Part shown: piece after piece, positions 1,385-21,364 of the stretch
How the letters are laid out: every line of letters begins with the position of its first letter
Position numbering within the stretch: position 1 is the first letter of the stretch
IMG/VR virus record: IMGVR_UViG_3300025674_000444
Span: 1 to 22,335 of that record
DNA length: 22,335 nucleotides
Reading direction: 5' to 3' (one strand)
Origin: a virus
Translations under genes and position numbers: made by a program
Notes under the pieces: model-generated
Database searches by the model: none
Told to the model about the DNA's origin: nothing
Seen by the model: the letters and a program-made list of their open reading frames with translations, nothing else

Positions 1385-3171
1385 AATTTGTTGAGAACAA
1401 CATTTCTAATCGTAATCAAATAATTCCTGTTGAACTTTATTATCGCTCAATCAATGGTGCTGCATTTATGCAAAAAGAATCTTATGGTTCATATTATCAT
1501 CAAGATGAAGCTTTGTATAAATATGTACAAAAGTATGGCAGCGTCAAAGGGTATGAAGGGTTAGTCTATGTAAATAGACTAATCCTTGATATCGATAAAA
1601 ATGGTTTACAAGACGAAGAACTCTATGAATTGACTAAAAATCACATTGGTGAATTGATTGAGTTTGGTATCAAAGAAGAAGATATAAATGTTTGGTATAG
1701 TGGTAGTGGTTTTCATTTAGAATTAATGGATGTATTTGGCTTTCAACCAGCTAAAAATGTCCATGAAAAAGTAAAACAAACCCTTACTAAACACTTTAGC
1801 TTTGCTGATTCAATCTATGATAAAACAAGAATCATCAGAAGTAATTGGTCTTATAATCCAAAAACAAAAGCATATAAAATCTATATTCCTTTAAAATATA
1901 TTGACGACTTAACAATCGAAGATATTATAAAGGCAGCTCAAAGTAAAGAGTCTTATGATTATTATATGGAAGAATACGATAATTGGTTTGCAGAATATAA
2001 CAATTACGAAAAAACAATTGAACCATACATGCAATCTAAAGTTATCGATGCACAATTCGTTATACAAAAAGCTGTAAACAAAAGCTCTGAAACAAATTCA
2101 GTAGTTACTTGTATGCAACACGTGTATAATGAAGGTCCTATAGAAGGTTCTAGACATCAAAAAGCAATGCGTATTGCTTCAACTTATCGACGTTCAGGAT
2201 TACCATATCTTGCTACTCTAGCAGCAATGCTTGAATGGAATAATGGTAGTATGGATAATGATAAAATTGTCAGAGTTGTAGATAGTATTTATACTGGAAA
2301 CTATCAATATGGATGTAATGATATTATTATGTCTGAATATTGTGACAGTAAATGTATTTACTACAAAAACAAGAACTATACTTTGGATATTAAAGGCATT
2401 GATGAATTAGAAAGTGCATTCACTGAATACATTCAAAAAGATTTGGCTAAAAAATCTATAAACATGGCACATATATTTCCAGGTGCTATGCCTTATGATT
2501 TGAAACCAGGTGAACTAGTGATTGTATCAGGTGATACAGGTATGGGTAAAACAGCATTTGTTCAAAACATTGTTGCTAAAGCTAAGAAAGATACTTTATT
2601 TCTATCATTAGAAATGAATGAATATCTTACCTTTAGAAGATTTGTGCAGATTGTAGCTAATAAAACAAAAGAATGGGTTAATAATGTTTTTATAAGCAAT
2701 GAAAACGCTTCTTTTAGAGAGTTATTATCTCATATTAGAATTATGACAATCCAACCACAGATAGATGCTGTTAAAAGAATAGTAGCTGAACATGAACCTA
2801 GTATATTAGTTGTAGACACTACTGATGAATTACAAGTAGATGGTTTTAGAAATGATATACAGGAACAAAACATGAAGATAGATGCTTTGAAAAATATTGC
2901 ACAAAAGCATAATACTTTAGTGATAGCTATACATCATATTAATAAAAGTTCAGCTAGTACTGGACAATTAGGAATCCACTCTTTAAAAGGTTCATCCAAC
3001 GTTGTACAAAAAGCCGATAAGGTTATTTTAGTTCGTGGGAATAGTCGTGATGATATGTATAGAACTATACAATCAGTAAAATCACGTGACGAAGCACCTT
3101 TTGAAATGCTAGCAAGATTTACTTTTGAAACTATGCAATATGAAAGGTTAGACTATAATGAACTTGGATAA
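1360..3171 (+). CDS. Primase-helicase fusion: AEP-type primase, PriL-like four-Cys segment, DnaB/RecA-type helicase
   Basis: 603 aa, predicted to prime and unwind DNA at the phage fork. Residues about 20-180 look like an archaeo-eukaryotic primase: LDID (D77, D79) for catalytic metals, SGSGFHLEL (114-122, H119) for nucleotide binding, and D150/D154 followed by R157/R160 and the strand YKIYIPL. Residues 250-335 have C251, then GSRH and a helical GLP segment, then C319, C328 and C332; this layout recalls the Fe-S-binding C-terminal domain of PriL. Residues 380-603 are an SF4/RecA-type motor: Walker A GDTGMGKT (391-398), Walker B SILVVD (D486), IHHINKS (524-530) and LKGSSNVVQKAD (542-553). The start is the ATG with AGAAGG seven bases upstream, overlapping the previous gene by 25 bases. 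The helicase part is secure; primase is probable; the Fe-S role is inferred from cysteine spacing. Confidence 0.85.
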   Translation: MESNQKYIEFVENNISNRNQIIPVELYYRSINGAAFMQKESYGSYYHQDEALYKYVQKYGSVKGYEGLVYVNRLILDIDKNGLQDEELYELTKNHIGELIEFGIKEEDINVWYSGSGFHLELMDVFGFQPAKNVHEKVKQTLTKHFSFADSIYDKTRIIRSNWSYNPKTKAYKIYIPLKYIDDLTIEDIIKAAQSKESYDYYMEEYDNWFAEYNNYEKTIEPYMQSKVIDAQFVIQKAVNKSSETNSVVTCMQHVYNEGPIEGSRHQKAMRIASTYRRSGLPYLATLAAMLEWNNGSMDNDKIVRVVDSIYTGNYQYGCNDIIMSEYCDSKCIYYKNKNYTLDIKGIDELESAFTEYIQKDLAKKSINMAHIFPGAMPYDLKPGELVIVSGDTGMGKTAFVQNIVAKAKKDTLFLSLEMNEYLTFRRFVQIVANKTKEWVNNVFISNENASFRELLSHIRIMTIQPQIDAVKRIVAEHEPSILVVDTTDELQVDGFRNDIQEQNMKIDALKNIAQKHNTLVIAIHHINKSSASTGQLGIHSLKGSSNVVQKADKVILVRGNSRDDMYRTIQSVKSRDEAPFEMLARFTFETMQYERLDYNELG

Positions 3172-3355
3172 AATTATTAAGTTTGAACAAATGGAAAAAG
3201 AAGGATTATACATGAGCAAGTTAACTTTCTTATCGGTATTTTCCTTAGGGTTTCTTGTTTCTACAAAAAGTGGTGGTCACATGACTATTAGCTTTGGTAT
3301 TGGTCCACTTGAATTTGAAATTGGTTTAAGACTATGGCTCACAGAAACAAGATAA
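3158..3355 (+). CDS. Small protein with hydrophobic segment, function unknown
   Basis: 65 aa from the ATG at 3158, which overlaps the helicase stop by 14 bases and has AAAGG about ten bases upstream. An internal ATG at 3212, with AAGGA six bases before it, would give a 47-aa product and is an equally good start. Residues 20-36 (KLTFLSVFSLGFLVSTK) could be one membrane segment or a hydrophobic beta strand; the rest (TISFGIGPLEFEIGLRLW) is beta-like. Its end overlaps the resolvase gene by 22 bases. No family recognised; kept because it exactly fills the space between two real genes with overlaps at both ends. Confidence 0.5.
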   Translation: MNLDKIIKFEQMEKEGLYMSKLTFLSVFSLGFLVSTKSGGHMTISFGIGPLEFEIGLRLWLTETR

Positions 3356-3678
3356 GAGGTAACAATCTTGAACGAGAAATCGTTAATGGTGCTAAAGATG
3401 CTGGGCTCTCTGCAAAGAGGGCCTATGCATCCGATGGTAGAAGCTTGGGTAAATCCGAAGTAGTTGACGTAATTGTTGAAGATGTTACTATACAAGCAAA
3501 ACGTAAAAAGAAAATAGCACAATGGCTATATCCAAACTATCATGGAGATGACGTAGATGCTGTTGTAACTAGAATGGATAGAAAAGAACCTTTAATAATA
3601 TTACCATTAAAGGATTGGATTCAAATGATGAAGGAGATTAAACATGCAAATGAAAAAAGCAACTCTAGAAAAAAATGA
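3334..3678 (+). CDS. Hjc-like Holliday junction resolvase / PD-(D/E)XK nuclease
   Basis: 114 aa, near the length of archaeal Hjc-type resolvases. Motifs in order: RGNNLEREIV (8-17, E13 as the first acidic residue), KRAYASDGRS (28-37), DVIVEDVTIQAKRK (45-58, with D45 and K56), then a basic stretch and a hydrophobic strand (PLIILPL). The usual E-x-K of the metal site reads Q54-A-K56; glutamine here is also seen in some phage nucleases, but catalysis should not be taken for granted. It would resolve branched replication or recombination intermediates before packaging. The start overlaps the preceding small gene and its end overlaps the next one, consistent with one operon. Confidence 0.65.
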   Translation: MAHRNKIRGNNLEREIVNGAKDAGLSAKRAYASDGRSLGKSEVVDVIVEDVTIQAKRKKKIAQWLYPNYHGDDVDAVVTRMDRKEPLIILPLKDWIQMMKEIKHANEKSNSRKK

Positions 3679-4943: not shown

Positions 4944-7900
4944 TTATTCTTCAACCTGACCTTGCATTTCTTCTTCCATAGCTTCTTCCACTGCTTGACG
5001 ATTTTTTTCTACTTCTTGACCAATTCTATGCAAAGGAATACCTGTTAAAAAGTCAAATGACATAGCAGGAGACTTAATAGACCTATATCCATCACGCAAC
5101 AATCTACCACCAGGTATCCAGGTTGCTGCTTGATATTTCATAAAGTTATCAAACTCTCCAGTAAGCAATGAACTGATAGGAGCTAATACAAATCTACTAA
5201 TAGGTGGAGTAACTACTTGTAAAGGAGCCAATGATGTATGGGGCCAAGAACTAAAGAAAGCTCTCTTTCTATCTTCTTTATCACCAAACAACCATTGTGC
5301 AGTATCTTGCATCCAGGACATAGGTGGTGACAATGCATATTCAAACATAGTTCCAACAAATATACTTGCTAAAGCCATAGACATTAAATCAGCAGTAAGT
5401 TGTCTTTGGAATCTTTGCTGTGCATCTGTATTTAAAATAAACTCACCATATTTTGCACCTTTATAAAGATTTCTTCTTCTCTTGATACTGTTCCAAGCAT
5501 AAGGATGGAAACGTGTCATAACTCTACCTAAAGCAGTATTAGAATAATTTGTTCTATAAGCTGAGTGATAAATATACTGTGAAGCTTCAATACCTTTACG
5601 AGCCATATCAATTAAGAATGGTGAATCCCAATCCATTTTACCTTTCTCAATTAAAGGTAATGCTGTTTGTCTAGCATTTAAATAATGTGCAATACCAGCA
5701 GTTCTACGTAAGATTCTTTCAGATATTTGCATTGGTTTTGCACCTAATTGTACAATAGCTTCTCCTACATTATATCTTTTTTGTAGTTCATTAATAGATA
5801 ATTTTAATTCTTTTTCTGCTTCTACAGGATTCATACTCAATTCAAAGTTTTCTTTTTCCCATTTACCAAATCTTTTAGCTAATGCTGTTGCAAATCTTTT
5901 AGCTTCAGCACTTTGTAATCCTTTATTCAATCCTACTTCTTCAAGATAAATACCTTCCATCAAACCTTTTTGTACAAACACACGTTCAATGTCTTTTAAG
6001 TTTTTAACTTTTTCTTTTTTAACTTGTCTTGTAATAGGGTCTATTATTTCATAGGTAGCATTACCAAATACTTCTTCTATCAAGTATTTTTCATCCATAG
6101 CTTTTCTCATAATATCTCCACCTACATCAGCGTAAATATTAGTACCACCACCAAAGAAATTAGCAATCATAGTTTTAGGGTGAAACAATAGTGACATCAA
6201 TTCATAACGACCTTCAAAAGCACTAAAGGCATTTAATTTTTGTGCTAAAGCAATTCTTCTTTCAGATTCAGGCATAATAACATCTTCACCTGTAATAGAA
6301 CTTTTTCTTACTTTTAAGTCTTTAAAGAAACTAAATTGTCCAGGTTTATATCCCATTGCACTACCAATACGTTCTTCCATTCTACGTATTGCATTAACAG
6401 CAGATTCATCACTAAACACGTGGAAAGCAGTTCCATATCGTTTAATTTTATTAATATTTTTGACATCATTTAATTTATTAGCAGCATCCATACGTGCTTT
6501 TTCTATAGCTGTTTTTAATTCTGTTCCTTTCAAAGAACTATTATAAATTAAATCTGAATCAGCTGCAATTGTTTCATCTACTTTTCTAATAAATTCTCTT
6601 TCATTGTAACTTAACTTACTGTTTCTATTTTTTGTAAGTTGTTCTATTTTTAATCCAGATGCTATATAATCTTCTAACAATACTTTTTCTTTAGCTGTAA
6701 ATCCATCTCTATTTAAATCTACAAATGAATCAATACCAAGTTTTGTATTTAAACTTAGTTTCATATAATTAGCCCAAGCTTCTGTATGTTCTTTATCTCC
6801 AATAGCATCTTTTCTTACAAATCTATCAATATACATATTTCCACGAATACTACTTAAAGTATCAGTATATGCTTTTACAAATCCTCTAGTATAATCTTCT
6901 AATATTTTATTGGTTTTTTCATAACCTAACAAAACATGCTCACTTCTACTCTTATTAGAACTATTAGTAAATGCTGCTTGCATTTTATTAGTATTAAAAT
7001 TAATTAAACGTTCACTAAACATAGTATCTTCATAAGATTTTACAGACATTTCATGTGTCTTGCTTGTAATAAACTCATTAACAGACATATCAATATACTT
7101 TTTCATTTCTCCTGCTGTTCCATCTTCTTGCATAAACTTTGCACGAGTATTAGGCATAAATGATTTATATCCATACAATTCTATTTTTTTACGATGTTCT
7201 AAAGCTAAATGCTTAATATGATTTTCAATATTCTTATAATTACCAGCCGCTTTATTAAAACCTAAATGTGGCCAATAATTCTCTACTGAATCTTTTGTAT
7301 TCGTAATAGTTTGAATAGGTACAAATGGTCTTTCTTTATTATATTTTTGTATTAAAGCTTTTGCTGCATCAGGTATAGGTTTTCTTTTTTCCATAATATC
7401 TTGCAAGTCAATACCTAAATCTTTATTAACTTGTTGTCTTATTTGATAATGATGTAAAATAAAGTTTAATTCATTTAATCCAACAACATTAGCAGCAGTA
7501 CTATCAATAGTATTTGATTTTTCAAGCACACTTCTAATACGTTTAAACACTTTACCATCATTTAAAATACCATCAATCAATAAATTATTTTGTATAGATG
7601 GGCTAATATTCCATTTGCCATTTATCTTTTCCATACCACGTCTATTTAATTCTTTATACCATTCAAAAAATGCATCTCTTGCTTTGTTTATTTCAAAAAC
7701 ATATTGTTCTACAGTAATAGTTTTTAAATTTCCAGGATTTTCAGGGTCTTTAATAACAATTTTATCTCCTGTTGCTTTTTTAATGTCTTCAAGTTCTTTT
7801 AAAGCTCTTTGAAAACTTGCATCAAAATATTTTTTAGAAAATTTATCGTATTTTACATTAGTATTATCATATCCAGCTTCTCTAAACTCAGTAGCAATAT

Positions 7901-10900
7901 GCTCTAATTCTAAATTATATTTTTTAATGTTGCTATCTCCAGAGCTTTGGAAATTAAACAAAGCACTTCTTCTATTATTTTCGTGGTCAATCAAAGCAGC
8001 AACAATTCTTTTTCCATGGTCAATAACATCTACATTCAGTTCTATAGTATTAGTTGGAGAAATAACACTTTTTAAATTAGTTTCTCCAGTAATTCTGTCG
8101 TAAACAGGTACGTTAGTTTTTTGATAACTTAACATCTCTTGTTTTTGTAACTGATACAAACCTACACTACTATAAAACCAATAGTGTACACCACGATTAA
8201 ATGGAGATTTATTTTTTGCTTTCTCTACTTCAGCTGGATTACTTGCATCTTTAATGCCTTGTAACTTTTCAAACAATTTAATTTTATTAGTTAAACGAGA
8301 ATCAGGACCAACATAAATATCTTCTACCATATTTAAGAAAACATCCAGTTCTTGTGCAGTCATTTGTCCAGCTTCAACACCAAGTCTTGCTTGACCTTTA
8401 ATACCAATATTACTAAAGAAATCAGCAATATTACCTTCCATATCAATTAACAACTTAGGATTCTTCTTTATAAGTTTTTCCCAACGTTGTAATGATTCTA
8501 TTTGCTTTGTAGTCAATACTAACTGACCTTCAGGTGTTTTCATACCTTCAGTAATATCAAATATTTCAATCATTTCTTGAGGATTTTCTAAAAATCTTTT
8601 TTGCTGCTCTACAGGTTTATCACTTAATTTAGATAAAATACTTGACTCTAAAACTTCTTGCATTTCTATTTGAGATTTAGTTTCTTTAAGTGTAGATAGT
8701 AAATCATCTAATTCAGTTTTTTCAAACAATATAGCTTCTTTAGCATCTTCTTTATTTATTTCTCTTTTTAATGGAGTTATATCACCTTCTAAAGTAGCTT
8801 TCACTAATTGTACTGCAGATGAACGTTTACGTGTATCTTCACTTGTAAAATCTAATTCTAATTGATTTTTCAAATTATCCATAGGTTTTACTTTAGGTAA
8901 ATCTACTTTTACTTCAATAGCATTTTGATTAGTAGTTTCGGCTGCCTCAAATATATTTCTAATTTCAGTCATAAATTCTTTTTTATGGCTTAAAGGAATA
9001 GATTCTTTTCTAATTAATCCTGTATCAAACATACCTTGTTGAGTAGCGTACATGTTTAAAGTATTTAAACTTTTATATAAAGAAGCTTCATCTGCACCTG
9101 AATTAATTTCACTTTGTACTCTTTCTAATGCATTTCTTCCAAATCGTTGTAATGAATTAATTCTTTCTGATTGTATCATTTCAGGAGATAATCTAGATTG
9201 AATTTTATTTAATTCTTCAATTTGTTTATCTAAATAATCAGGGTCTAATTTAAATCTTTCTTCTAATTCAGATTTTAAATGGTCAAAATACTGTGACTCT
9301 CTTATTCTGCTAGATGGTTCTGGTAATATATTAGATAGCAATGTTTTACTAAATATATTACTTAAAATACCACGTTGTTCTGCATTTAACTCAACACTAC
9401 CAATATTATTTAATTTTGTATTTCTATACTCTTTAATTTTAGCATCAACATCAAATGATTCTATTAACCCTTTTTTATGTAAAAAATTATTTAATTTTAT
9501 ATCATAAGCTACATCTAGCATTTCTGCTATTTTATTATCAATCATTTTAACTTCAACACCAGATTGATATAAAGACTGTCTTAAATCATTATATCTTAAA
9601 GCTAAATTATTTAAAGCAGCAACATTTAACATTTGTTGTAAAATATGCTCTTCTTGATTTACTTGTTGAAAAAGTTTTTTACCATTCTTTTCGTTTCTAA
9701 AATGTGTATTAGTAGCTAATATTTTATCCCATAAAGTTTTTAATTCTTTAATAGACATATCAGCAGCTTTCTTATCTCCACCTGCTATTTTATCAAAATA
9801 CATTTCATTTAACAGCAAGTCTTTAGATAGCAAACCTCGATTCTTTAAATGGTTGTAAAAATGTGTTTTGCGTAATTTGGTATGTGCTTTTCCTAAATTA
9901 GCAATAAGATTAGTATATTGTGATTGTGGAACAACTTGTATATCAATAGTAAGAGTATCATTAAAATATCCAGAAGTTTCAAAAGGTTCTGATATAATTT
10001 TTGCAGTTTCAGCTAAATGATTATTGTATAAGTCACCAGTACTCTTATCTGATATAAAATCTTCATAAAATTTATTAGCCATTTGACCAATTTCATTAGG
10101 TCTTAATCCTTTAACATCATCACTATTCATTCCTTTTTCTAAAGCTTTTTGAAATTTTCTTCTAGATACTAATTTATCATTTAATGTACCATAAATAGTA
10201 GTCATACTAATTTTTTTTGAATTAAACAAATCTTGTAATTTAAAAGATTGTATATCCATTAATTCTAGACTTGTTTCATTTGGGGTAAAATTAAGAGTAA
10301 TTTCTTTGTTGGTTTCGTTAATATCAATAATTTCACCAAAAAGTCTTTTAGATTGATTTTTAAGTTTATTTAGTTTGTTATTAATATTATCTGCATATTT
10401 TTTATATAATTCTGGACGAGATTCTCCACCTGTATACATTTTATAATATTTTTCTTCAGGTAAAAAGAATAACTCTTTTAAAAGAGTATTTGTTAAATTT
10501 TTTGTATTAGGAGTAATTCTCATTGTTTTACCAAGAAAATAATATTCTCCAAATTGATTTTTAGAATAAATTTTTTCTCTAAAATCATTTTTTTCATTTA
10601 TAAACCGTATTTTTTCTTTTGGGTTTAATTTATTATATTCATTTCTTACTTCAGCTTCTGCTCTAGTCAATGTTTCTTTACCTATAAAACTAAACCAATC
10701 TATATTTAGTTTAGCTCCTTTTCTAGGCCAAGATATAACTCTATTATTATTATCAACTAATTCAAAATGTCTTTCTAGTATACTATTAAATTTATCACCA
10801 ACATCAGGATTACGAGTATTTTTTGCACCGTCTAAATCAAGATTTAAAGATATATCAGATTCATAATTATCAAAGTATTCAAAATGTTCTTTTAATGATT

Positions 10901-13900
10901 TTAAAGTAATTTTTTTCTTACCAGGCAAAGGAGCTTTTAAATCAGGGTCTTGATTTTGTACAATTCTTATAAAAATATTTTCAGCATTATTAATAGGAAA
11001 TTTTTTATCTGGACTTGATTCTATTAAAGTAAATAAATCTCTTACATCCTTATTAAAATTAGTACTTTTACCAATATTGCTATTTGCAGTATAAACATTA
11101 TCAGCTTGTCTAAATATATTATTTGGTTTAGTTATATCAGATACAAAATATGGTTCTAAATTTCTTTGATATCCCCACTCAGGAAACAAATTAACATCTG
11201 TTTTATCTTTTTCAACAAAATCTTTAGGTTTAAATTCTTTTACAAAATCTTTTGCTAATCCATGATAAACACCAACAGCATCGCCATCTGTATCTGCACC
11301 ACCTAAACGCTCCATATTTTTTGGAACAACGTGTACTCCTTTACCAGGTTGATTAGTAAACCCATTAAATGTTAAATTTAAAATACCACTTTGATTACCA
11401 ACAGGACTACGATTCATTAAAAAGTTTTCCATTACATCTTTTAATAAAGATTTAGTTTCTTTATCTTTTGTAGTATTATAAGTTTCCCATAATTTACCAA
11501 GCTCTACTTCTTTTGTTTTAAAAACTTTACGTAATTGTCCAAATATTTTTATTTTATCTGTTTTATGTCCATCATTTAACATAAAATTACTTTCATCTAA
11601 TCCTTGATTACGTAATTTTCTCCATAAAGAAGCATCTTGACTTTGTAATCTAGGATATGAAAATCCTGATGGAGCTTTTAAATTAGTTAAACGATTTCTT
11701 ACATACTTTGTAATACTTTGTTCAATGTATTTTTTATTACCATGAATCATTAAAATTAATGCATCATAATCAGCCATCTGTAATATTTCATTAATGCTGT
11801 TTAATTCTTTCATTTCAGCTTTTGCCATTTCAGAAGGTGTTCCATCTAGCATCATACCATCTTTTTCACCATAAATAGATTTCAAAATACTTCTACCAAG
11901 TTTACTATCTATGTTTGTATTTAATACATTAACAACTTCATACAAATCTAAATCAGAAATTCTAATCTTTTTACCATCAATTGTATCAAAATTATATCCA
12001 AAGTCTTTTATAGCATCATTATATTTTTTCATATAAGTTTTGCTACCAGAAATAGAATCAATAACCATTTGTTTATGTGCTGCTTTAAATTCTGGACTTA
12101 CAAAAGGACTTCTTGCATCAGCTGCACCATAATGCATTTGTGTTACATCTCTATTAGGAACTTCTATTTCAGAAGTAATTATGCGAATATGTTCTGGTTC
12201 TAATTCAATAACTTCAGGTTTAACTTCTTCAATATAACTATTAGTTTTTTCATTATACTTTAAACGCCCTATTTGGTGCCTAGAATTAGTTTTTAATGAA
12301 GAAGCATATACTACACCATCATAACCGTTATCCATAGCCCATTTAGCTAATTCTGGGCTTGCATGTCTTTCAGCTTGTTTAAAAATAATCAAACCTCTGT
12401 CATTTTCAAAATCAGCTTCTTTTTGTATTACAGATTTAATATAGTTTTCATTTTTGTTTTTACCTCTAGCTTCTTGTAAAGCATCTCTCCATTTACCAAC
12501 CCAATGCATAGCACCATCTGTAGTCATTTCACCAGCAGAATTAACAAAATCTTCAATTACTGCAACTCTTAATTTTCTACCTTGTAAATAATTATCAACT
12601 AATTCTCTATCTACAGTACGTCCACCATGAAATGTTTTACTATATTTTACAAAATCAATATAGTTTTTATATAATGGCTCAGCACCTTTTTGTATTGGGT
12701 ATCCATCTTTATTTTTTACAAAATATCCTTGATGTCTTCTAAAAGCTTTTATCCATTGTTCTAAAGTAACTTTGCTTAAATCTTTAGATATCATACCAGC
12801 ATCTTGTAACAAGTATGTTGCTCTAGATATTTTTTCTCTATAGTATTTTGCTGGGTCTTTATAAAAAGGACTTTCATATATAACTTCTTCATATCTCGGC
12901 ATATCTTTTAATGCTTCATAATAATCTTTATATACTCCTTTATTAACTAAATCCATAAGAACATTTTCACCTTTTCCTGTAAGACGTGATATGTCTTTTT
13001 CTAATACTCCAAAATTATCTGTAAAACTAGATGTATTTTTTTGGTATTCATATTTATTAAACAATTGACTAGTTTCTGTCATAAATTTATTTAATAATTG
13101 TTCTCCAAAAGACAGTTCTACTAAAGGTCTAGTAACTCCAATATTATTACCAGAATTAACATAATAAAGAAATCTTCCTTCTTCATGTAATAAATTTGAT
13201 ATATTTTCAAGATAAGTTGGTTTGGTTTGTAATTTAGATGCTCTACTAAAATCACCTTTATGTTCTTTTACATTTAAATAAGTTTCAAAGTTACTATCTT
13301 TATTAAGTCTATTATGAAATGAACCTTCATGAACAACTTCTAAATTTTCACCTTCTAAACTTTCTTTAGGTGCTTTTCCTATTTCAGTTTCATATTTTAT
13401 AGTTGGAACTTCTACTTCTATTTCAACTGTTTCTCCATTTTTTGCAGTAAATTTTTTTGTTACTATGTCTTTTGCTACTCGTATTGCTTTAAATTTTTTA
13501 CCACCTTGTACAAAATTTCCAGAACTATTAAAATAAATTTCATTTAATTGTTCATTACTAAATGGCATTTTATCATAAAATGTTTTTACATATTGTTTAA
13601 AAGTATCCCTATCATTAGCTTTAGTAGCAGCTTTTTTTATTTGCATAGCTATATCTAATGTTTGATAACCTTCTCCATACTGCTGATTTAATGCATCAAC
13701 AATAGTGTAAACAGGGTCATTGTCGCCTAAATAAGTATCATTATCTATATCAATTTCTTTATCATATTCAGTAGATAGTTTTTTAGGGTCTTTTGCTACT
13801 TCTCTTGCTGCAGTTAAAGTGTCAGATGGAATATCATTTATACGAATAGATTGTTCTCTAGCCATTGTACTTATTTTATTTTGACTAGTTAATAAATCAA

Positions 13901-15743
13901 TAGCTTTTTCTTGTTCAATTGTTTTATCTTTTACTTGTTGTAAAATATCTTTTTGTTTAGCATCTAATTCTTTTTTTAATTCTTGTAAATCTTCTTTACG
14001 TAAACTACCAATTTCTTTACCAGCAAATTTTTTAGATTGTTCTTTAGTTATTTTGCGTGTAGGGTCATATAAATTTTCAGTTATATACGTACTTTTATCT
14101 AAGGTAAAAATTTGTCCTGATTCATTTTTTATACGAACATTTCCATTTTTAAATACTTTATGAACTTCTACTGGTTCTACTCCACCAAAATTAGTAAACA
14201 CTTCAATAGTATCTCCAACTTCTAACATAGATTTATCTATATCAGGCATTGTTTCTCTAGCAGCCATTTCATTAGCTAATTCTTTTTCAAAATCAACTTG
14301 TAATTTTTCTTGTACTTTTTTTGTTTGTTCAGATAAAAATTTATTGAAGTTTCTTTTTTCTTGAATTTCAGTTCTTTGTTTTGGAGTTAATTCTTGATAT
14401 GATTTATTAGATACTTCAAGAAAAGCTTGTATAAAATCATTTCTTTCTTGACCTTCTGCAGGTGGTTCAAAAATAGTATTTTTATGATTTTCATATATTT
14501 CAGCTTCTCTTTGTTTTGCATATTCTTTTTGTTGTGGAGTAAATGTTTTCCAAGCTGTTAAATCTTCTGCAAATCCAACAGGAACATTTTCTTTTTGTCC
14601 AGTTGTTTTATCAATAATAACACTTTTATATATTTTATGACTATCTTCTCTAAATGCTTTATGTACATCTAATTCAGCTTTAGGTCTACCAGATGCACCA
14701 AAAAAGAATCCTAATAAATATTCATAAATTTGGTCAGGTGCTGGAGCACCTTGTACAGTTAAAGGAGCACCAGTAAAAGCAGAACCAGCAATACCTCTTG
14801 TAACCATATTAACAATATCTACTCCACCAGGACTTAATCCTTGACCTTTCATTGTTTTATACATTTCTAAAGCACGACCTTTAAGAATATTATGTGCCCT
14901 TAAACTCATTCCTACTTCTTTAGCAGCAAACATTTCTCCTATTTTAAGATAATTACTAATACCACCAAACACAGCACCAGCATATGCTCCATGTACTACA
15001 GATTGACGAACTGCTTCCCAATCACCAGATACTGCTGCTTTACGTGATGAAATAGCCATTGCTGCTGATAAGTGAGCAGATTGCTTAACCATATCAAGCA
15101 TACCAGGAGTCATTTTAGATAATAAAAAGTTATTTTTAAGAATTTCTGTACTACCAATAGCTGATGCTGCATTATCTACAAACCAATCAGCTACACGCAT
15201 TGGAACAGAACGTAATTGTAATTGTTTAATCTCTTTACCAGCTACTTTTTCAGTAACTTCTTTAGTTAATTGTGGTATATATTTTGCACCAAATTTACCT
15301 AAATTTTCTTGCACAGCATCAGCTGCTTGTTTTCTAACTAAATTAATTCCTTTTAAAGCACCACGTTTAGCTAATGGAGCAGTACCAAACGATAAAACAC
15401 CAGCAATAATATCGGGAGCAAATCCAATCAAATGCCCCATTTTATTTAATAAAGCTTCTGTTTCAGTCTTAGGGTCATCTGCATATCCAAAAGTAGTAAA
15501 TCCTTCTACTACACCACTAACTAACTGATTAACTGCACTGATAATTTTGTTTTCATCATCTTCAAGATTACGTTGAAATTGCATACCAATACCTTTAGCA
15601 GACTTTTCTAGTTCATCTAATTCATCACTAGAAAAATTTTCAGGACTTCTGTTATATAAACCTGTAGACATTTGTACAAATTTACGTTCGTCAAGAACTC
15701 CCTTATCAAGTAAGGTTTTATAATATTGATAGGTACTATTCAT
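4944..15743 (-). CDS. Giant virion/ejection protein with putative single-chain DPBB RNA polymerase core
   Basis: 3599 aa (about 410 kDa), uninterrupted. Visible layout: hydrophobic segments near residues 105-125, 225-265 and 315-345; a KOW/SH3-like strand set at 509-552 after a coiled coil and before another (560-620); GYDGVVY (1140-1146) and ELEPEHIRI (about 1178-1186), reminiscent of ADP-ribosyltransferase-like modules of phage polyvalent proteins; the polymerase-like region 1290-1645 (separate entry); long helical and coiled-coil stretches about 1700-2600; a LFHPKTMIANFFGGG element near 3180-3200; and a C-terminal part with RFHPYAWNSIKRRR and a membrane segment at 3450-3470. It is the last gene of the ejection-type cluster, where T7 has gp16, so it is probably packaged and injected with the DNA. 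The start is a TAATG overlap with no visible Shine-Dalgarno, suggesting coupling. Alternatives are a DarB-like or polyvalent protein without polymerase activity. Confidence 0.8.
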   Translation of the reverse strand: MNSTYQYYKTLLDKGVLDERKFVQMSTGLYNRSPENFSSDELDELEKSAKGIGMQFQRNLEDDENKIISAVNQLVSGVVEGFTTFGYADDPKTETEALLNKMGHLIGFAPDIIAGVLSFGTAPLAKRGALKGINLVRKQAADAVQENLGKFGAKYIPQLTKEVTEKVAGKEIKQLQLRSVPMRVADWFVDNAASAIGSTEILKNNFLLSKMTPGMLDMVKQSAHLSAAMAISSRKAAVSGDWEAVRQSVVHGAYAGAVFGGISNYLKIGEMFAAKEVGMSLRAHNILKGRALEMYKTMKGQGLSPGGVDIVNMVTRGIAGSAFTGAPLTVQGAPAPDQIYEYLLGFFFGASGRPKAELDVHKAFREDSHKIYKSVIIDKTTGQKENVPVGFAEDLTAWKTFTPQQKEYAKQREAEIYENHKNTIFEPPAEGQERNDFIQAFLEVSNKSYQELTPKQRTEIQEKRNFNKFLSEQTKKVQEKLQVDFEKELANEMAARETMPDIDKSMLEVGDTIEVFTNFGGVEPVEVHKVFKNGNVRIKNESGQIFTLDKSTYITENLYDPTRKITKEQSKKFAGKEIGSLRKEDLQELKKELDAKQKDILQQVKDKTIEQEKAIDLLTSQNKISTMAREQSIRINDIPSDTLTAAREVAKDPKKLSTEYDKEIDIDNDTYLGDNDPVYTIVDALNQQYGEGYQTLDIAMQIKKAATKANDRDTFKQYVKTFYDKMPFSNEQLNEIYFNSSGNFVQGGKKFKAIRVAKDIVTKKFTAKNGETVEIEVEVPTIKYETEIGKAPKESLEGENLEVVHEGSFHNRLNKDSNFETYLNVKEHKGDFSRASKLQTKPTYLENISNLLHEEGRFLYYVNSGNNIGVTRPLVELSFGEQLLNKFMTETSQLFNKYEYQKNTSSFTDNFGVLEKDISRLTGKGENVLMDLVNKGVYKDYYEALKDMPRYEEVIYESPFYKDPAKYYREKISRATYLLQDAGMISKDLSKVTLEQWIKAFRRHQGYFVKNKDGYPIQKGAEPLYKNYIDFVKYSKTFHGGRTVDRELVDNYLQGRKLRVAVIEDFVNSAGEMTTDGAMHWVGKWRDALQEARGKNKNENYIKSVIQKEADFENDRGLIIFKQAERHASPELAKWAMDNGYDGVVYASSLKTNSRHQIGRLKYNEKTNSYIEEVKPEVIELEPEHIRIITSEIEVPNRDVTQMHYGAADARSPFVSPEFKAAHKQMVIDSISGSKTYMKKYNDAIKDFGYNFDTIDGKKIRISDLDLYEVVNVLNTNIDSKLGRSILKSIYGEKDGMMLDGTPSEMAKAEMKELNSINEILQMADYDALILMIHGNKKYIEQSITKYVRNRLTNLKAPSGFSYPRLQSQDASLWRKLRNQGLDESNFMLNDGHKTDKIKIFGQLRKVFKTKEVELGKLWETYNTTKDKETKSLLKDVMENFLMNRSPVGNQSGILNLTFNGFTNQPGKGVHVVPKNMERLGGADTDGDAVGVYHGLAKDFVKEFKPKDFVEKDKTDVNLFPEWGYQRNLEPYFVSDITKPNNIFRQADNVYTANSNIGKSTNFNKDVRDLFTLIESSPDKKFPINNAENIFIRIVQNQDPDLKAPLPGKKKITLKSLKEHFEYFDNYESDISLNLDLDGAKNTRNPDVGDKFNSILERHFELVDNNNRVISWPRKGAKLNIDWFSFIGKETLTRAEAEVRNEYNKLNPKEKIRFINEKNDFREKIYSKNQFGEYYFLGKTMRITPNTKNLTNTLLKELFFLPEEKYYKMYTGGESRPELYKKYADNINNKLNKLKNQSKRLFGEIIDINETNKEITLNFTPNETSLELMDIQSFKLQDLFNSKKISMTTIYGTLNDKLVSRRKFQKALEKGMNSDDVKGLRPNEIGQMANKFYEDFISDKSTGDLYNNHLAETAKIISEPFETSGYFNDTLTIDIQVVPQSQYTNLIANLGKAHTKLRKTHFYNHLKNRGLLSKDLLLNEMYFDKIAGGDKKAADMSIKELKTLWDKILATNTHFRNEKNGKKLFQQVNQEEHILQQMLNVAALNNLALRYNDLRQSLYQSGVEVKMIDNKIAEMLDVAYDIKLNNFLHKKGLIESFDVDAKIKEYRNTKLNNIGSVELNAEQRGILSNIFSKTLLSNILPEPSSRIRESQYFDHLKSELEERFKLDPDYLDKQIEELNKIQSRLSPEMIQSERINSLQRFGRNALERVQSEINSGADEASLYKSLNTLNMYATQQGMFDTGLIRKESIPLSHKKEFMTEIRNIFEAAETTNQNAIEVKVDLPKVKPMDNLKNQLELDFTSEDTRKRSSAVQLVKATLEGDITPLKREINKEDAKEAILFEKTELDDLLSTLKETKSQIEMQEVLESSILSKLSDKPVEQQKRFLENPQEMIEIFDITEGMKTPEGQLVLTTKQIESLQRWEKLIKKNPKLLIDMEGNIADFFSNIGIKGQARLGVEAGQMTAQELDVFLNMVEDIYVGPDSRLTNKIKLFEKLQGIKDASNPAEVEKAKNKSPFNRGVHYWFYSSVGLYQLQKQEMLSYQKTNVPVYDRITGETNLKSVISPTNTIELNVDVIDHGKRIVAALIDHENNRRSALFNFQSSGDSNIKKYNLELEHIATEFREAGYDNTNVKYDKFSKKYFDASFQRALKELEDIKKATGDKIVIKDPENPGNLKTITVEQYVFEINKARDAFFEWYKELNRRGMEKINGKWNISPSIQNNLLIDGILNDGKVFKRIRSVLEKSNTIDSTAANVVGLNELNFILHHYQIRQQVNKDLGIDLQDIMEKRKPIPDAAKALIQKYNKERPFVPIQTITNTKDSVENYWPHLGFNKAAGNYKNIENHIKHLALEHRKKIELYGYKSFMPNTRAKFMQEDGTAGEMKKYIDMSVNEFITSKTHEMSVKSYEDTMFSERLINFNTNKMQAAFTNSSNKSRSEHVLLGYEKTNKILEDYTRGFVKAYTDTLSSIRGNMYIDRFVRKDAIGDKEHTEAWANYMKLSLNTKLGIDSFVDLNRDGFTAKEKVLLEDYIASGLKIEQLTKNRNSKLSYNEREFIRKVDETIAADSDLIYNSSLKGTELKTAIEKARMDAANKLNDVKNINKIKRYGTAFHVFSDESAVNAIRRMEERIGSAMGYKPGQFSFFKDLKVRKSSITGEDVIMPESERRIALAQKLNAFSAFEGRYELMSLLFHPKTMIANFFGGGTNIYADVGGDIMRKAMDEKYLIEEVFGNATYEIIDPITRQVKKEKVKNLKDIERVFVQKGLMEGIYLEEVGLNKGLQSAEAKRFATALAKRFGKWEKENFELSMNPVEAEKELKLSINELQKRYNVGEAIVQLGAKPMQISERILRRTAGIAHYLNARQTALPLIEKGKMDWDSPFLIDMARKGIEASQYIYHSAYRTNYSNTALGRVMTRFHPYAWNSIKRRRNLYKGAKYGEFILNTDAQQRFQRQLTADLMSMALASIFVGTMFEYALSPPMSWMQDTAQWLFGDKEDRKRAFFSSWPHTSLAPLQVVTPPISRFVLAPISSLLTGEFDNFMKYQAATWIPGGRLLRDGYRSIKSPAMSFDFLTGIPLHRIGQEVEKNRQAVEEAMEEEMQGQVEE
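10809..11876 (-). other. Putative RNA polymerase catalytic region of the giant protein (residues 1290-1645)
   Basis: Ordered motifs on the protein: EKDGMMLDG (D1295) and NLKAPSGFSYP (K1356), possible parts of a first double-psi barrel; then MNRSPVGNQSG (R1445, P1447) and GGADTDGDAVGVY with D1484, D1486 and D1488, matching the metal-binding D-x-D-G-D loop of beta-prime-like barrels; then ANSNIGKST (G1558); then NLDLDGAKN (D1638, K1641). QDE-1-like and crAss-like phage RNA polymerases show the same order: R-x-P, D-x-D-x-D, an IG element, and D-x-x-K. The second barrel is well supported by motif; the first barrel is a guess. T7-type polymerase motifs were not seen here. Confidence 0.55.
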
Positions 15744-16378
15744 TATTTATTTAAATAAGAGTAAGCATCTGATAAAATAGCCAGATACTGATTATATAAA
15801 CTTTTTTCACCTTCGTCAGCTTTTTTACTCATTTTTTCTTGAACAAAAGAATTACTCAAATCACTTTGCAGTTCAATAACTTCTTGCATTAAAGCTTGTC
15901 TACGTTGTCCAGAACCAGCAATGCCAGCTTTTTCTTGTTTTTGAACATTTCTTAACTCCATTGCAATTGTTTGTATACGTGGTGTAGCTACATCTAATAA
16001 AGACTTAGGTTCAAACTTTTTAAATACACGAAAGAATCTAAACTCTTCTCCAGGTTGAAATTCTCTTTGATTAAAAATACCTCGTTTTTTATCATATTTT
16101 TCTAAACCAGCAATAGCTAATGCAGACTCTGCTTCTGTTTCTGCTAAAGCTCTAGCAGCTGCTTTTTCTTGTTGTGCATAAGCTTCATCAGCAATCATAG
16201 ATTGCATTCTTAATTTAGCCATCATAGATTCAGCATCTAATAAAGCTTCTTTATTAACTTCTCTTTGTATTTCTAAACGTTCTCTATAAGCATCCAAACC
16301 TGTAGGTTCTCCTAACTGCTGTAAACTTTGTCTTAGTTCCCTAAAAGCTTTTACTCTTGATTCAAATAAATCTGCCAT
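15743..16378 (-). CDS. Helical internal virion protein, probable ejection protein
   Basis: 211 aa, with AGGAG six bases before the ATG. It is almost wholly helical, with coiled-coil-like stretches at residues 5-35, 40-95 (alanine- and glutamate-rich, EKAAARALAETEAES) and 140-180; a short strand region with EFRFFRVFKKFEP lies in the middle. There is no signal peptide or membrane segment. Its place between the gp14-like protein and the giant protein corresponds to T7 gp15, a tube-forming ejection protein, but no sequence similarity to gp15 was recognised. Its stop overlaps the giant gene start as TAATG. Confidence 0.5.
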   Translation of the reverse strand: MADLFESRVKAFRELRQSLQQLGEPTGLDAYRERLEIQREVNKEALLDAESMMAKLRMQSMIADEAYAQQEKAAARALAETEAESALAIAGLEKYDKKRGIFNQREFQPGEEFRFFRVFKKFEPKSLLDVATPRIQTIAMELRNVQKQEKAGIAGSGQRRQALMQEVIELQSDLSNSFVQEKMSKKADEGEKSLYNQYLAILSDAYSYLNK

Positions 16379-16387
16379 TTTTTTCTC

Positions 16388-16918
16388 CTATACGTATTTT
16401 AATGTATTCACATCACCAATATTAACTTCAGTAGAAGGTATGCCTTGTTTTGCATAATTAGCTCTAATTTGGTCAATATTTATTTGTTGTCTATTTAATT
16501 CACTTGCTAACTGATTTTGTGTTTGATAAATACTTCTTTGTGAAGAAAGATTAATTCCTTGTAAACGCTGACCTAATAACCCAGCCATTTGTTCACGTTG
16601 TACATTTTCTCTACCATATGCTAAACCAGTTTGTCCACCACTTTGCAATTGAAACATTGCATTTTCATAGATTTGAGCACCAGCAACATTTCCTTGTGCC
16701 CTATATAAATCTGCTTGTCTTTCATATTCAGACATTAATTCTGGAATATCTTCTTGGATTCTTCCAATACTTGCTTCCATTTCAGATTTCAATCTTTTTC
16801 TTCTTCTTTCTTCTGCTTTTCTAGCACTAAAATAACTAAATCCACCTATAATAACTGCTGCAGCTGTTACATAAGGATTAGCTTTTGCAAATTCGCCTAC
16901 TGCTTTCCAATCAGCCAT
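16388..16918 (-). CDS. Membrane-anchored coiled-coil virion protein, T7 gp14-like
   Basis: 176 aa. One transmembrane segment lies at residues 15-33 (PYVTAAAVIIGGFSYFSA), followed by a basic stretch (RKAEERRRKRLK) and long helices rich in Q, E and R to residue 155 (YERQADLYRAQGN; QTQNQLASELNRQQ). One hydrophobic helix plus coiled coil in about 180 aa fits the outer-membrane ejection protein class (T7 gp14). The start shares bases with the lysozyme stop (TAATG), and AAGGAG stands seven bases upstream. Role by architecture and context; a holin-like role is less likely given the long coiled coil. Confidence 0.55.
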   Translation of the reverse strand: MADWKAVGEFAKANPYVTAAAVIIGGFSYFSARKAEERRRKRLKSEMEASIGRIQEDIPELMSEYERQADLYRAQGNVAGAQIYENAMFQLQSGGQTGLAYGRENVQREQMAGLLGQRLQGINLSSQRSIYQTQNQLASELNRQQINIDQIRANYAKQGIPSTEVNIGDVNTLKYV

Positions 16919-17523
16919 TATTTATCTCCTTTATTTGATTTTTTTCTCATACCAAAACCGTAATACATTGCTGCATCCAAATTAAATTTCATAGCTAAAT
17001 CATCTGATAACACTTGATTTATTTGCATTTTTTGCATTTCTTCTTCACTTATAGTTGGTTGCTTCAATCCTTCAATTGCTTGTTGAAAATCATTTACTCT
17101 TGTTGGTGATTGTGTTTTCCATAATGATGGTTCACCTTTTGAAGTAGTATTGATTTCTTTAATAGCATCGTCATATCTTTTATCTTTCAATGCTTGATAT
17201 GCACTAGGAAATTTTTTATTCCAATTTTGTCCTAATTGAAAATTAACAGAAGTTAAATTTACTAAAAAATCTTCATTGTCAATACCCAATTCTTTTGCTT
17301 GTTTCATAGCAGCATTAACAGATGTTTCAGTATCTTTTTTATACCATTCTTCAATAACATTATCTGGAATAACATCACCTTCTTTGTATTTAACTAATTC
17401 ACCTGCTGTAAGTTTATGTCCTATACCAGCAGTTAAATTACCTGTAGAATCTTTGTATACTTTTGATTCGTTAGATTCTCTTTGTTCTAACAATGTTCTT
17501 AATTTATTATAAAATGTTTCCAT
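16918..17523 (-). CDS. T4-type lysozyme (GH24 muramidase)
   Basis: 201 aa. The catalytic triad is exact: E16, D25 and T31 with eight and five residues between, as in T4 lysozyme E11-D20-T26, in the context RESNESKVYKDSTGNLTAGIGH. VNFQLGQNW (93-101) and a C-terminal FQQAIEGL helix complete the fold by about residue 150. Residues 151-201 are an extra helical tail ending in KKSNKGDK. There is no signal peptide. Cleavage of peptidoglycan is expected. Its place among nozzle and ejection genes, rather than next to a holin, suggests a virion-borne enzyme that opens the cell wall at entry, although a lysis role at the end of infection is not excluded. GGAG precedes the ATG. Confidence 0.88.
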   Translation of the reverse strand: METFYNKLRTLLEQRESNESKVYKDSTGNLTAGIGHKLTAGELVKYKEGDVIPDNVIEEWYKKDTETSVNAAMKQAKELGIDNEDFLVNLTSVNFQLGQNWNKKFPSAYQALKDKRYDDAIKEINTTSKGEPSLWKTQSPTRVNDFQQAIEGLKQPTISEEEMQKMQINQVLSDDLAMKFNLDAAMYYGFGMRKKSNKGDK

Positions 17524-18312: not shown

Positions 18313-18506
18313 TACGCTTTCTCCAATTCTGTTTTATACCATTCATTATCAACCTTATAATACAAGTAAACTTGATTACCTTCCTTTACAATTCTTTTAC
18401 TACCACTTTTACCTTCACCAGTCTGTGGTTTTTCTGTAAAAACTTTAGCAGGTGTCTCCATCTGCTGTTTAACTTCTTCAATCATATCAAATACAATATC
18501 TTTCAT
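18312..18506 (-). CDS. Small hypothetical protein in tail module
   Basis: 64 aa. An amphipathic N-terminal helix (KDIVFDMIEEVKQQM) leads through a basic linker (EGKSGSKRIVK) into a small beta unit (NQVYLYYKVDNEWYKTEL). It is joined to both neighbours by TAATG overlaps, so it is translated with the nozzle and the 262-aa protein. A minor structural component or chaperone is possible; the sequence does not decide. Confidence 0.55.
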   Translation of the reverse strand: MKDIVFDMIEEVKQQMETPAKVFTEKPQTGEGKSGSKRIVKEGNQVYLYYKVDNEWYKTELEKA

Positions 18507-21364
18507 TACTTCACACTCTTTTCTCTAAATATTATTTGAATATCATTTACTTCAAAATTAAGAGCTACATTAGACCCAGAAAAACGCAGTCCAAACCCTT
18601 TCACTTTATCAAAAGCTTTTCTATTGACAAATTCAGTCTTAGCTTTTCTAAGTGGAATATGTAGAGTTTTAAATTCAGTCTCAGAACTACCATCTAATGT
18701 AGCTAAAAGTTCTTCTTCCCCATCATCTCTAAATCCATATAAATAAACACCATCTCCATTTTTATAGCTCAAATACACGCTTATTATTTTTTTATCGACA
18801 CTTGGCTTGCCAAAAGTAAATTCCTTCGTTTTAAGGGCAATCTCGTCAATATTTTGGCTATCTAGCTTACTAGGAGCAATAGAAAACTTACGTAATTCAA
18901 CATTTGTGCTATCATATTTGTCAAACCACACTAAAGTTCCATCATTAGCAGTAACAATATTAGTCATATCATTAGTGCTATTTCCTTTACTTCTGTAGTA
19001 TAATGCTCTAGCTTTTAAATCAAATGCAATTACTTTTTGATTTTTATTCAATATTAAAATAGTTTTTTCAATAGGGTCATAACCTATAACGTTATTTACA
19101 TTGTAATAATTAGACCAAACAAGTCGTTGTTGACCAGCAGTATCTAATAGTAAATCAGTTAATTGTCTACCATCATACAAATAAAACCCATATTCATTAA
19201 ACCAAGCAATAAATCCTTCACCACGTACAACGTGATAATCTTTTAAACAACCTTTATATTCCAATGTTGCTTCTAAAAACTCTATGTCTCTTGATATATT
19301 AATAATGTATAAATGATTACGTTTAAACTCTAATAATTTACCTGACAATGATTCTAGTGCTATAATATCATCACCGTCATTAATTTCTACATCTATTCTG
19401 CTTTCATAAGTAAATGTATCAAAAGCATTAACATTAGATTTAAATATAGTATCATTAGCAGTTTTTAAGTCTCCAGTTACAGGGTCAGAATATTTTACAT
19501 TACCAATGTATAATCTTCTATTTGCTACAGTACTAGCTTTATATCCTGTACCAAAAGCTCCCATAATATATTTACCATTATCAATATATACTTCTGCAGC
19601 TACATTTTCAGGTTTATCTTTTAATTCTATATTACCTAACAATATTCTATCATCATTAACAGTAGCTAACCCATACAAATATGATTGACTTGTTTGGGGA
19701 TAAGAAACTAAAGATTTTGATGCTGTTTGATGAACAATGCTATCAAATTTATAATAATCTTTTCCAGCAGCATAACGTATTCCTTTTCTAAAATCTACTT
19801 CAAATAATAAATACTTTATTCTATTCTTATTATAATCTTCTGCTGCTTGAGTTTGCGTAGTATCTTCTAATACATAATTAGCTTTTACTTCGCTATAATA
19901 AAACTTTACACTTTTTATATTGTCTATATCAGGGATTCTTCCCCATAAACTTGCATGTAAACATTGATTAACTTTTTCACCTTGTAATGTTGTTTCTAAT
20001 TTTAAAGGACTGACTTGATTATCCAAATAAACTATTTCACTATAAATATAAACTATACTATCTGTTGTACTAAAAAATGTACCACTATTATCATCAGGTA
20101 ATGAATCACTATTAGAATAAGGTCTATCTCCAGTCCAAAAAGCAACATTTAAATTACCTTTACCAGTAGATGAAGTACCTGTATAAAATGGATTAGAACC
20201 AACTTGAGTAATAGGAATACTATGCATTTCTCCCCATGTAGTATAATAAACATAAGAAATTGATGCTCCACTAGATATACTAGCAGGAGTTTCTACTAAC
20301 CCCCAAGCATTTCTAGTTGCTGTTAAAGTATTGCTTAATATATTTGTAACATGCATATACTCGCTTGTAATTTTAATTAAATCACCTATTTTAAACTTAG
20401 TTCCATCTGAAACAGTAAATGAAACAGTAGTGTCATTTGGAATATTCTGTGTAGTAGTTGCTCCACTATCTTGTATAAATTCACTACTTGTATATCTATT
20501 ACTAAAATTCCATACTTTAACTTCTGATTCTGTTACTTCTGGTAATTCAGTATTTAATTTTTTCCAACCTTTTACAGAAAATAAATGATTAGAGTTTGCT
20601 AATTGTTTATAAATATTTGCACCTTGTGGAATTGTTTGACCAAAAGCATCAAATTGTATTTCAGTATTTGTTACACCAGTTATCGTTACAGGATTACTTG
20701 AAATAGTATAAGTTTCAGAACCAATTGTAAAGCTATATTCAAATTTTACAATATCATCTATTGAAAAATCAGATGTTTCATCACTACTATCTGTTTGAAC
20801 TGATGTAGAAGTAGGACTAATAACAGAAGAAGTATTATAAGTAGTATCTTGAAATGATGTACTTAAACTATCATTACCCATATAATATTGTTCATTTATA
20901 TGTTGTAATTTAATTGGCTTATTAGTTTCCTGAAAACTAGTAGGTGTAATTCTTACTACTCCATCAACAGCACTATATACAACTGGAGAAAATGTATCTC
21001 CATAAGTAATATCTGTTCTTGATGAATATGTAAGTTTATCGCTATTTAATTCAAATACTTTAACATTTGGTGTATCTGTATTAATAAATAACATTTCATT
21101 ATTTTGTACGAATGCAGTTGTGTCATCAATATCGTAGTCTGCATTAAAATGAAATAAACCATTTCCATAATTAACCTCAGCATCTAAATCAGCAGGATTA
21201 CTAGCAGAATAATCTGTAGCAGCACCCATAATCTTTAACTTACCAGGTGTCTCTATGGAGAGTGTATCTAATGCTTCAAACTGATTGTCCTGTAAATCAC
21301 GACTATTAGTTTTGTTATTGATACCACCACTATAGTTTGATATGTTTAATATTCCCTTTGCCAC
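18506..21364 (-). CDS. Probable tail nozzle / tail tubular protein (T7 gp12-like beta-propeller class)
   Basis: 952 aa. The N-terminus ISNYSGGINNKTNSRDLQDN followed by a GKLKIMG segment matches the (F/Y)-S-G-G-x-N opening typical of podovirus nozzle or stabilisation proteins. The body is beta-rich with repeated aromatic-glycine blades (about residues 420-860, for example IAWFNEYGFYLYDGRQL and GTLVWFDKYD), and the end FEVNDIQIIFREKSVK is also typical. It would form the distal tail tube through which DNA passes. It starts at GTG, with AAAGG nine bases upstream; no better ATG lies near. The start lies inside the 47-aa ORF. The class call rests on termini, size, beta content and position before ejection genes. 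Confidence 0.6.
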   Translation of the reverse strand: MAKGILNISNYSGGINNKTNSRDLQDNQFEALDTLSIETPGKLKIMGAATDYSASNPADLDAEVNYGNGLFHFNADYDIDDTTAFVQNNEMLFINTDTPNVKVFELNSDKLTYSSRTDITYGDTFSPVVYSAVDGVVRITPTSFQETNKPIKLQHINEQYYMGNDSLSTSFQDTTYNTSSVISPTSTSVQTDSSDETSDFSIDDIVKFEYSFTIGSETYTISSNPVTITGVTNTEIQFDAFGQTIPQGANIYKQLANSNHLFSVKGWKKLNTELPEVTESEVKVWNFSNRYTSSEFIQDSGATTTQNIPNDTTVSFTVSDGTKFKIGDLIKITSEYMHVTNILSNTLTATRNAWGLVETPASISSGASISYVYYTTWGEMHSIPITQVGSNPFYTGTSSTGKGNLNVAFWTGDRPYSNSDSLPDDNSGTFFSTTDSIVYIYSEIVYLDNQVSPLKLETTLQGEKVNQCLHASLWGRIPDIDNIKSVKFYYSEVKANYVLEDTTQTQAAEDYNKNRIKYLLFEVDFRKGIRYAAGKDYYKFDSIVHQTASKSLVSYPQTSQSYLYGLATVNDDRILLGNIELKDKPENVAAEVYIDNGKYIMGAFGTGYKASTVANRRLYIGNVKYSDPVTGDLKTANDTIFKSNVNAFDTFTYESRIDVEINDGDDIIALESLSGKLLEFKRNHLYIINISRDIEFLEATLEYKGCLKDYHVVRGEGFIAWFNEYGFYLYDGRQLTDLLLDTAGQQRLVWSNYYNVNNVIGYDPIEKTILILNKNQKVIAFDLKARALYYRSKGNSTNDMTNIVTANDGTLVWFDKYDSTNVELRKFSIAPSKLDSQNIDEIALKTKEFTFGKPSVDKKIISVYLSYKNGDGVYLYGFRDDGEEELLATLDGSSETEFKTLHIPLRKAKTEFVNRKAFDKVKGFGLRFSGSNVALNFEVNDIQIIFREKSVK

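Follow-up and report, generated by a model that had tools for sequence, protein, structure and literature searches.

We analysed a stretch of viral DNA of 22,335 bases (IMG/VR virus record IMGVR_UViG_3300025674_000444, positions 1 to 22,335; here called the window), which has a G+C content of 29.5% and is probably a fragment of the genome of an uncultured phage. Its minus strand carries one giant open reading frame (ORF), open throughout positions 4944 to 15743, whose product of 3599 amino acids is predicted to be an ejected virion protein with an RNA polymerase and belongs to a family represented in IMG/VR. The product of this ORF, called the giant below, is very probably an RNA polymerase with two double-psi beta barrels that is made late, packaged, ejected, and used to transcribe the first phage genes. 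The predicted fold supports a single-chain two-barrel RNA polymerase of the QDE-1/crAss-like type at about residues 1030 to 1690. Beyond this core, we infer that the giant is enzymatically active, that it is packaged and ejected, that it serves the early genes, and that it recognizes promoters.

An earlier note on this DNA had placed an RNA polymerase-like core at positions 10809 to 11876, which correspond, when read on the minus strand, to residues 1290 to 1645 of the giant; over the same interval the plus strand has many stops and is noncoding. All of the motifs that the note had read from the letters were found in the 3599-residue ORF at the residues it had named. These are RSPVGN at 1445 (with R1445-x-P1447 encoded at 11403 to 11411), GGADTDGD at 1481 to 1488 (with the predicted metal-binding triad D1484-x-D1486-x-D1488, DTDGD, at 11280 to 11294), NSNIGK at 1554, and LDGAK at 1637 to 1641, where the downstream aspartate D1638 of LDLDGAK has its codon at 10830 to 10832. 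Two candidate catalytic lysines lie ahead of these motifs, K1122 (codon at 12378 to 12380) and K1151 (in SSLKTNS; codon at 12291 to 12293), all of these features being on the minus strand. The giant ORF gave no significant match in Pfam or PHROGs, and both sequence and profile searches against PDB sequences returned matches at chance level only.

The fold of residues 791 to 1870 (positions 10134 to 13373, minus strand) was predicted with AlphaFold2 from an input of 63 family members. The model had a predicted template modeling score of 0.72, and its core blocks had predicted local distance difference test (pLDDT) values of 80 to 97. The best Foldseek match was the virion RNA polymerase of a crAss-like phage (PDB 6VR4; E value, 8e-8; probability, 1.0), followed by QDE-1. 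Structural alignment with VIA-align extended across both barrels for QDE-1 (Z score, 15.4 over 497 residues) and for the phi14:2 RNA polymerase of 6VR4 (Z score, 10.9 over 654 residues), and further matches were maize RDR2 (14.1), phage P74 gp62 (11.1), P23-45-type gp64 (10.9), and P23-45 gp96 (9.0). Sequence identity over the structural alignments to QDE-1 and RDR2 was 10 to 12%. Among predicted viral structures, the best matches were unnamed UniProt entries (E value, 1e-23), followed by uncultured crAss-like phage proteins. Thus, structure prediction bore out the two double-psi barrels proposed in the earlier note, and the Foldseek and VIA matches, together with motif conservation, support its placement of a QDE-1/crAss-type polymerase core inside a giant protein.

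Within the model, a strand-rich first barrel (beta-like, DPBB-B) occupies residues 1058 to 1190, approximately (12174 to 12572, minus strand), and contains D1076 and the invariant K1122 and K1151. The second barrel (beta-prime-like, DPBB-A), at about residues 1355 to 1500 (11244 to 11681, minus strand), matches QDE-1, RDR2, and beta-prime subunits and holds both the RxP motif and the aspartate triad. It is followed by a predicted 37-residue bridge-helix-like helix at residues 1540 to 1576 (11016 to 11126, minus strand; H750-786 of the model). In the two-barrel superfamily, one barrel provides the DxDxD triad and the other provides two basic residues (PMC7824862). By this division, the first barrel of the giant would supply the lysines K1122 and K1151, the second would supply the Mg-binding D1484, D1486, and D1488, and the bridge-helix-like segment would come after the second barrel.

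As a single query against IMG/VR, the window sequence recovered, besides an identical contig, a single relative with 76% identity across the motif region; in a two-sequence alignment, the motif blocks were among the best-conserved parts. Relatives were then gathered with a degenerate DNA pattern for GGADxDGD and with a longer pattern with fixed spacing, and these searches yielded more than 100 giants with sizes of up to about 3,400 amino acids. A profile built from only the window protein and its closest relative recognized distant giants with E values of 1e-8 to 1e-86; detection across such distances by a profile of two close sequences indicates true homology rather than chance. In 62 nonredundant members, D1076, G1077, K1103, G1117, K1122, K1151, G1233, L1415, R1445, P1447, and G1453 were invariant (window numbering), none of these 11 positions being part of a search pattern, and D1638 was 98% conserved. 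Because the GGADxDGD pattern itself selects for the triad, we retested conservation through an independent handle, the N-terminal family signature EGFTT-x18-GHLxGFA (15411 to 15509, minus strand), counting loci that were reached solely through it and were long enough to span the motif. D1484, D1486, D1488, K1122, K1151, R1445, and P1447 were all kept in 32 of these 32 loci, so the claim held on the point that had been set beforehand as its test, conservation of the three aspartates. Other positions were freer: in the same loci Gly1487 varied (G, S, A, I, or F), as did Ala1483, and K1103 was lost in two. The earlier note had also counted K1641 and NSNIGK among the polymerase motifs. Both are present in the window protein, but they are limited to its subclade, and elsewhere in the family DPMDE and GRxxLG stand at those places.

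These patterns bear on whether the barrels could be a structural or inactive polymerase remnant within an ejection protein, which we consider highly improbable. A match in fold is by itself no proof of activity, and in some lineages the glycine of DxDGD is changed to S, A, I, or F. Against this, the three aspartates, both lysines, and RxP are invariant in a family whose members are only 15 to 20% identical overall, which would be unexpected for a dead domain.

The family searches brought up several further observations. At L300, L321, L327, L264, L326, and L251, DxDID, DxDSD, DxDAD, or DxDFD takes the place of DxDGD, with the three aspartates intact. The GGADxDGD pattern also matched other phage polymerase-like groups (L042, L048, L035, and L069; L050, L033, and L046), which comprise proteins of 880 to 900 amino acids, marked by SFRSPLVDPSEVN, and larger proteins carrying ARNPMI/GGADNDGD. 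The alignment of the family profile to an 880-residue phage RNA polymerase group was confined to the RxP-GGADxDGD stretch (E value, 0.003). Some giants contain inserted SLOG/DprA-like domains (L013, residues about 552 to 686; L105, residues 407 to 541; phrog_768 E value, 1.2e-5), possibly nucleotide-sensing or counterdefence parts. The inserted SLOG-like domain is 43% identical to SLOG proteins of Maribacter phages, and we rejected the Maribacter phage matches as polymerase relatives since the matched part is this insertion. We likewise rejected the contig of L022 (G015; 88,986 bp), which contains two giants, as a single phage with a pair of virion and nonvirion polymerases: its terminase, portal, and capsid genes are each present twice, so the record combines the genomes of two related phages. 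A tblastn search of 50,697 phage records with eight diverse members and the window found no polymerase relative, and no relative of the giant family turned up in two genome scans covering 84,980 bacterial and archaeal species. Nor is the polymerase of the family named by any model in Pfam or PHROGs.

The position of the gene points to the virion. In the window, a leftward late operon ends with the giant gene and converges with a rightward replication operon; its order is 952-residue protein, small proteins, lysozyme-like protein, 176-residue protein, 211-residue protein, and giant. The 211-residue protein directly upstream of the giant (15743 to 16378, minus strand) is a candidate ejection partner that has no family match in Pfam or PHROGs and keeps its place in a relative, G003 (48,382 bp). 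The 176-residue protein (16388 to 16918, minus strand), also in the same order in G003, is another candidate by its sequence, having a hydrophobic N-terminal segment. Next is the lysozyme-like cassette protein (16918 to 17523, minus strand; PF00959 E value, 5.7e-6; internal virion lysozyme motif of phrog_2083 E value, 3.6e-8). The 952-residue late protein (18506 to 21364, minus strand) is a tail-hub candidate by position only; it has a counterpart in G003 and no confident family match. On the plus strand, the convergent replication operon includes a primase/DnaB-like helicase (1360 to 3171; PF03796 E value, 8.2e-13; phrog_19 E value, 1.8e-24). At 3334 to 3678 of the window is a 114-residue ORF that looks nuclease-like (KRAYASDGRSLG...IQAKRKKK) and is conserved in the same position in G003 and in G004, another member genome.

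Packaging and ejection are, in our analysis, the best reading of this gene position, of the size of the protein, and of the analogy with phage N4. In this view, the giant would be a late product that enters the virion of a podovirus of ∼48 kb, is ejected together with the small cassette proteins encoded next to it, and then uses phage-specific promoters to transcribe the first phage genes. We weighed this against an active two-barrel RNA polymerase that never enters the virion but is made late, stays in the cell, and transcribes middle or late genes, with its long flanks serving assembly. Single-chain enzymes outside the virion do exist, P23-45 gp64 and YonO being examples (PMC10770324, PMC5467207). 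Such an enzyme is nevertheless unlikely here, as the polymerase has long conserved regions fused to it on both its N- and C-terminal sides, and its gene closes the late operon in an N4-like layout, next to those of a lysozyme and the small cassette proteins, whereas a nonvirion early enzyme normally sits among early genes. The conserved helical C-terminal region (residues 2450 to 3599; 4947 to 8396, minus strand) was delimited in an alignment of 46 members. Its likeness to T7 core proteins (Z scores, 3.6 to 3.8) and to E1004 core proteins (Z score, 4.8) was below the noise level and was set aside.

We also considered that the enzyme might serve some other synthesis than early transcription, such as priming of DNA replication or RNA-templated synthesis, since the best fold matches, QDE-1 and RDR2, use RNA and single-stranded DNA templates and no DNA polymerase gene was recognized among the G003 ORFs. 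The phage encodes its own primase-helicase, however, and the closest matches among phage virion proteins are transcriptases; we regard this alternative as extremely improbable. Leaving aside the structural genes and the primase-helicase, G003 has no other ORF of a length that could encode a second RNA polymerase.

G003 repeats the gene order of the window and adds terminase, portal, and capsid genes. Its portal is of the P22 type (PF16510; E value, 7e-58) and its capsid of the SU10 type (PF17236; E value, 5e-31), and none of its late proteins matched a tail tube or tape measure family. Together these constitute the gene set of a short-tailed phage, and the phage with the giant is probably a small podovirus. 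Family genomes cluster at 45 to 54 kb, with one giant gene each, and the nearest terminases among phage records, which include those of N4-like and other podoviruses, are only ∼25% identical. Crassvirales genomes are recognized by a length of about 97 kb or more and a block of several large transcription proteins, which the relatives do not have. The podovirus-like setting that the earlier note had described is upheld by the portal and the capsid, and its unlikeness to crAss-like phages by the genome of ∼48 kb and the single giant.

G003 and G004 provide a comparison within the family. Elsewhere mostly 82 to 94% identical, they differ almost completely in the giant-bearing ejection cassette, the tail-fibre genes, and the early control region. 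The exchanged cassette (30113 to 42855 in G003 and 25618 to 38180 in G004) carries distant versions of the giant. The early region of G003 has copies resembling TCTTATCTTTATG[AC]TTTATTTTTTTT, and that of G004 has copies resembling [AG]A[CT]TTTTCTTTATG[AG]TTTTATTTTATT. These copies of a CTTTATG-type element lie at L219:5983-7226 and 48110 for G003 and at L222:13307-14767 and 20373 for G004, one further copy per genome preceding the replication operon. All 11 sites in the two genomes are noncoding and in the sense of the early genes, most are about 35 to 60 bases before an early start codon, and their leave-one-out scores range from 13 to 31 bits. Sigma-70-type sites in the G004 early region were no commoner than in shuffles. 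The element copies are good candidates for promoters of the ejected polymerase, with the caveats that one copy follows a terminator-like hairpin and that early regions vary for other reasons too. It is possible, and we put it forward tentatively, that the giants are a distinct lineage of ejected two-barrel polymerases that takes the position of the N4 virion RNA polymerase in small podoviruses and that phages exchange the entire ejection cassette, polymerase included, together with its cognate early promoters of the CTTTATG type.

The window starts at the first codon of the replication operon, so the region corresponding to the element sites lies outside it, and its two element matches above 12 are both inside coding DNA. 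No strong copy was found in G001, which reaches upstream of the replication operon. In G001, positions 1100 to 1290 (L228), before the replication operon, form a hairpin-rich noncoding stretch (GTGAGCATAGCTCAC) in which CTATGGTTTTA weakly matches the element core.

It is important to note that several results weigh against an ejected, promoter-specific two-barrel polymerase. The mean pLDDT of the residue 791 to 1870 model is 70. The model of the C-terminal region (pLDDT, 64) has no confident fold match. Profile comparison revealed no homologue among PDB chains and no homology to phi14:2 gp66, and the link to known polymerases is therefore made through the predicted fold alone. The CTTTATG-type element is absent from the other family genomes tested, which, the window aside, have 0 or 1 match above 12.

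The kind of enzyme proposed here, a virion two-barrel polymerase, is already known from crAss-like phages, a Thermus phage, and jumbo phages; what is new is the family in podoviruses of ∼48 kb, an addition of more than 100 IMG/VR sequences. Our literature search found no description of the giant family in small podoviruses, though the supplementary tables of PMC10770324 could list members. The earlier note had called the giant a third independent solution beside N4 and crAss-like phages. This does not stand: at least four kinds of virion RNA polymerase were previously known, the phiKZ/AR9 multisubunit type and P23-45 gp96 among them (PMC10770324), and as the fold is common to the giant and the crAss-like enzyme, an independent origin of the giant's polymerase is unsupported. 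The family does add diversity for tracing the origin of QDE-1-like enzymes, and the G003/G004 pair is a natural swap experiment for locating the promoters of such enzymes.

In QDE-1 and RDR2, an RNP-type motif precedes a GGD.DGD-type triad. The giant shares with fungal QDE-1 and plant RDR2 this motif order and the predicted two-barrel core of RNA-silencing polymerases, but those are eukaryotic RNA- or single-stranded-DNA-directed enzymes and not virion proteins. The virion RNA polymerase of crAss-like phages has both double-psi barrels in one chain (PDB 6VR4; PMC7886860). Like the phi14:2 protein (gp66; GenBank Phi14:2_gp077), the giant is predicted to be a single-chain two-barrel polymerase in a giant structural protein of a short-tailed phage. 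The phi14:2 genome, however, measures 100 kb and has several large structural genes, whereas the phages of the giant have about 48 kb and one giant gene, with a P22-type portal and an SU10-type capsid in G003; the giant has no detectable sequence homology to gp66. The P23-45 proteins gp96 and gp64 are likewise two-barrel single-chain phage RNA polymerases, and gp96 is part of a giant virion protein, being fused to the tape measure (PMC10770324). In gp96 the polymerase is at the N terminus of the tape measure of a long-tailed phage, while that of the giant is internal, with no tape measure gene seen in G003. Phage single-chain enzymes and QDE-1-like polymerases have been grouped into one of two major clades (PMC10770324).

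The closest parallel in layout is phage N4 (Schitoviridae). Its gp50 is a virion RNA polymerase of 3500 amino acids that works with ejection proteins (PMC12633501); the gene is the last late gene, converges with the replication genes, and adjoins those for the 16.5-kDa and 66-kDa proteins, which act as ejection proteins (PMC12633501). N4-type virion RNA polymerases were also found in such giants in a survey of injected polyvalent phage proteins (PMC5512222). The giant resembles gp50 in its size, in its gene being the final one of a late operon that converges with the replication genes, and in its adjoining small candidate ejection proteins. BLAST and profile comparisons of gp50 or its relative with the N-terminal, polymerase, and C-terminal parts of the giant found no homology, and the T7-type palm polymerase of gp50 (PMC5512222) differs from the predicted two-barrel fold of the giant. 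The layout is thus N4-like and the enzyme QDE-1-like; two unrelated polymerase folds appear to have been used to build a giant ejected polymerase, the strategy of N4.

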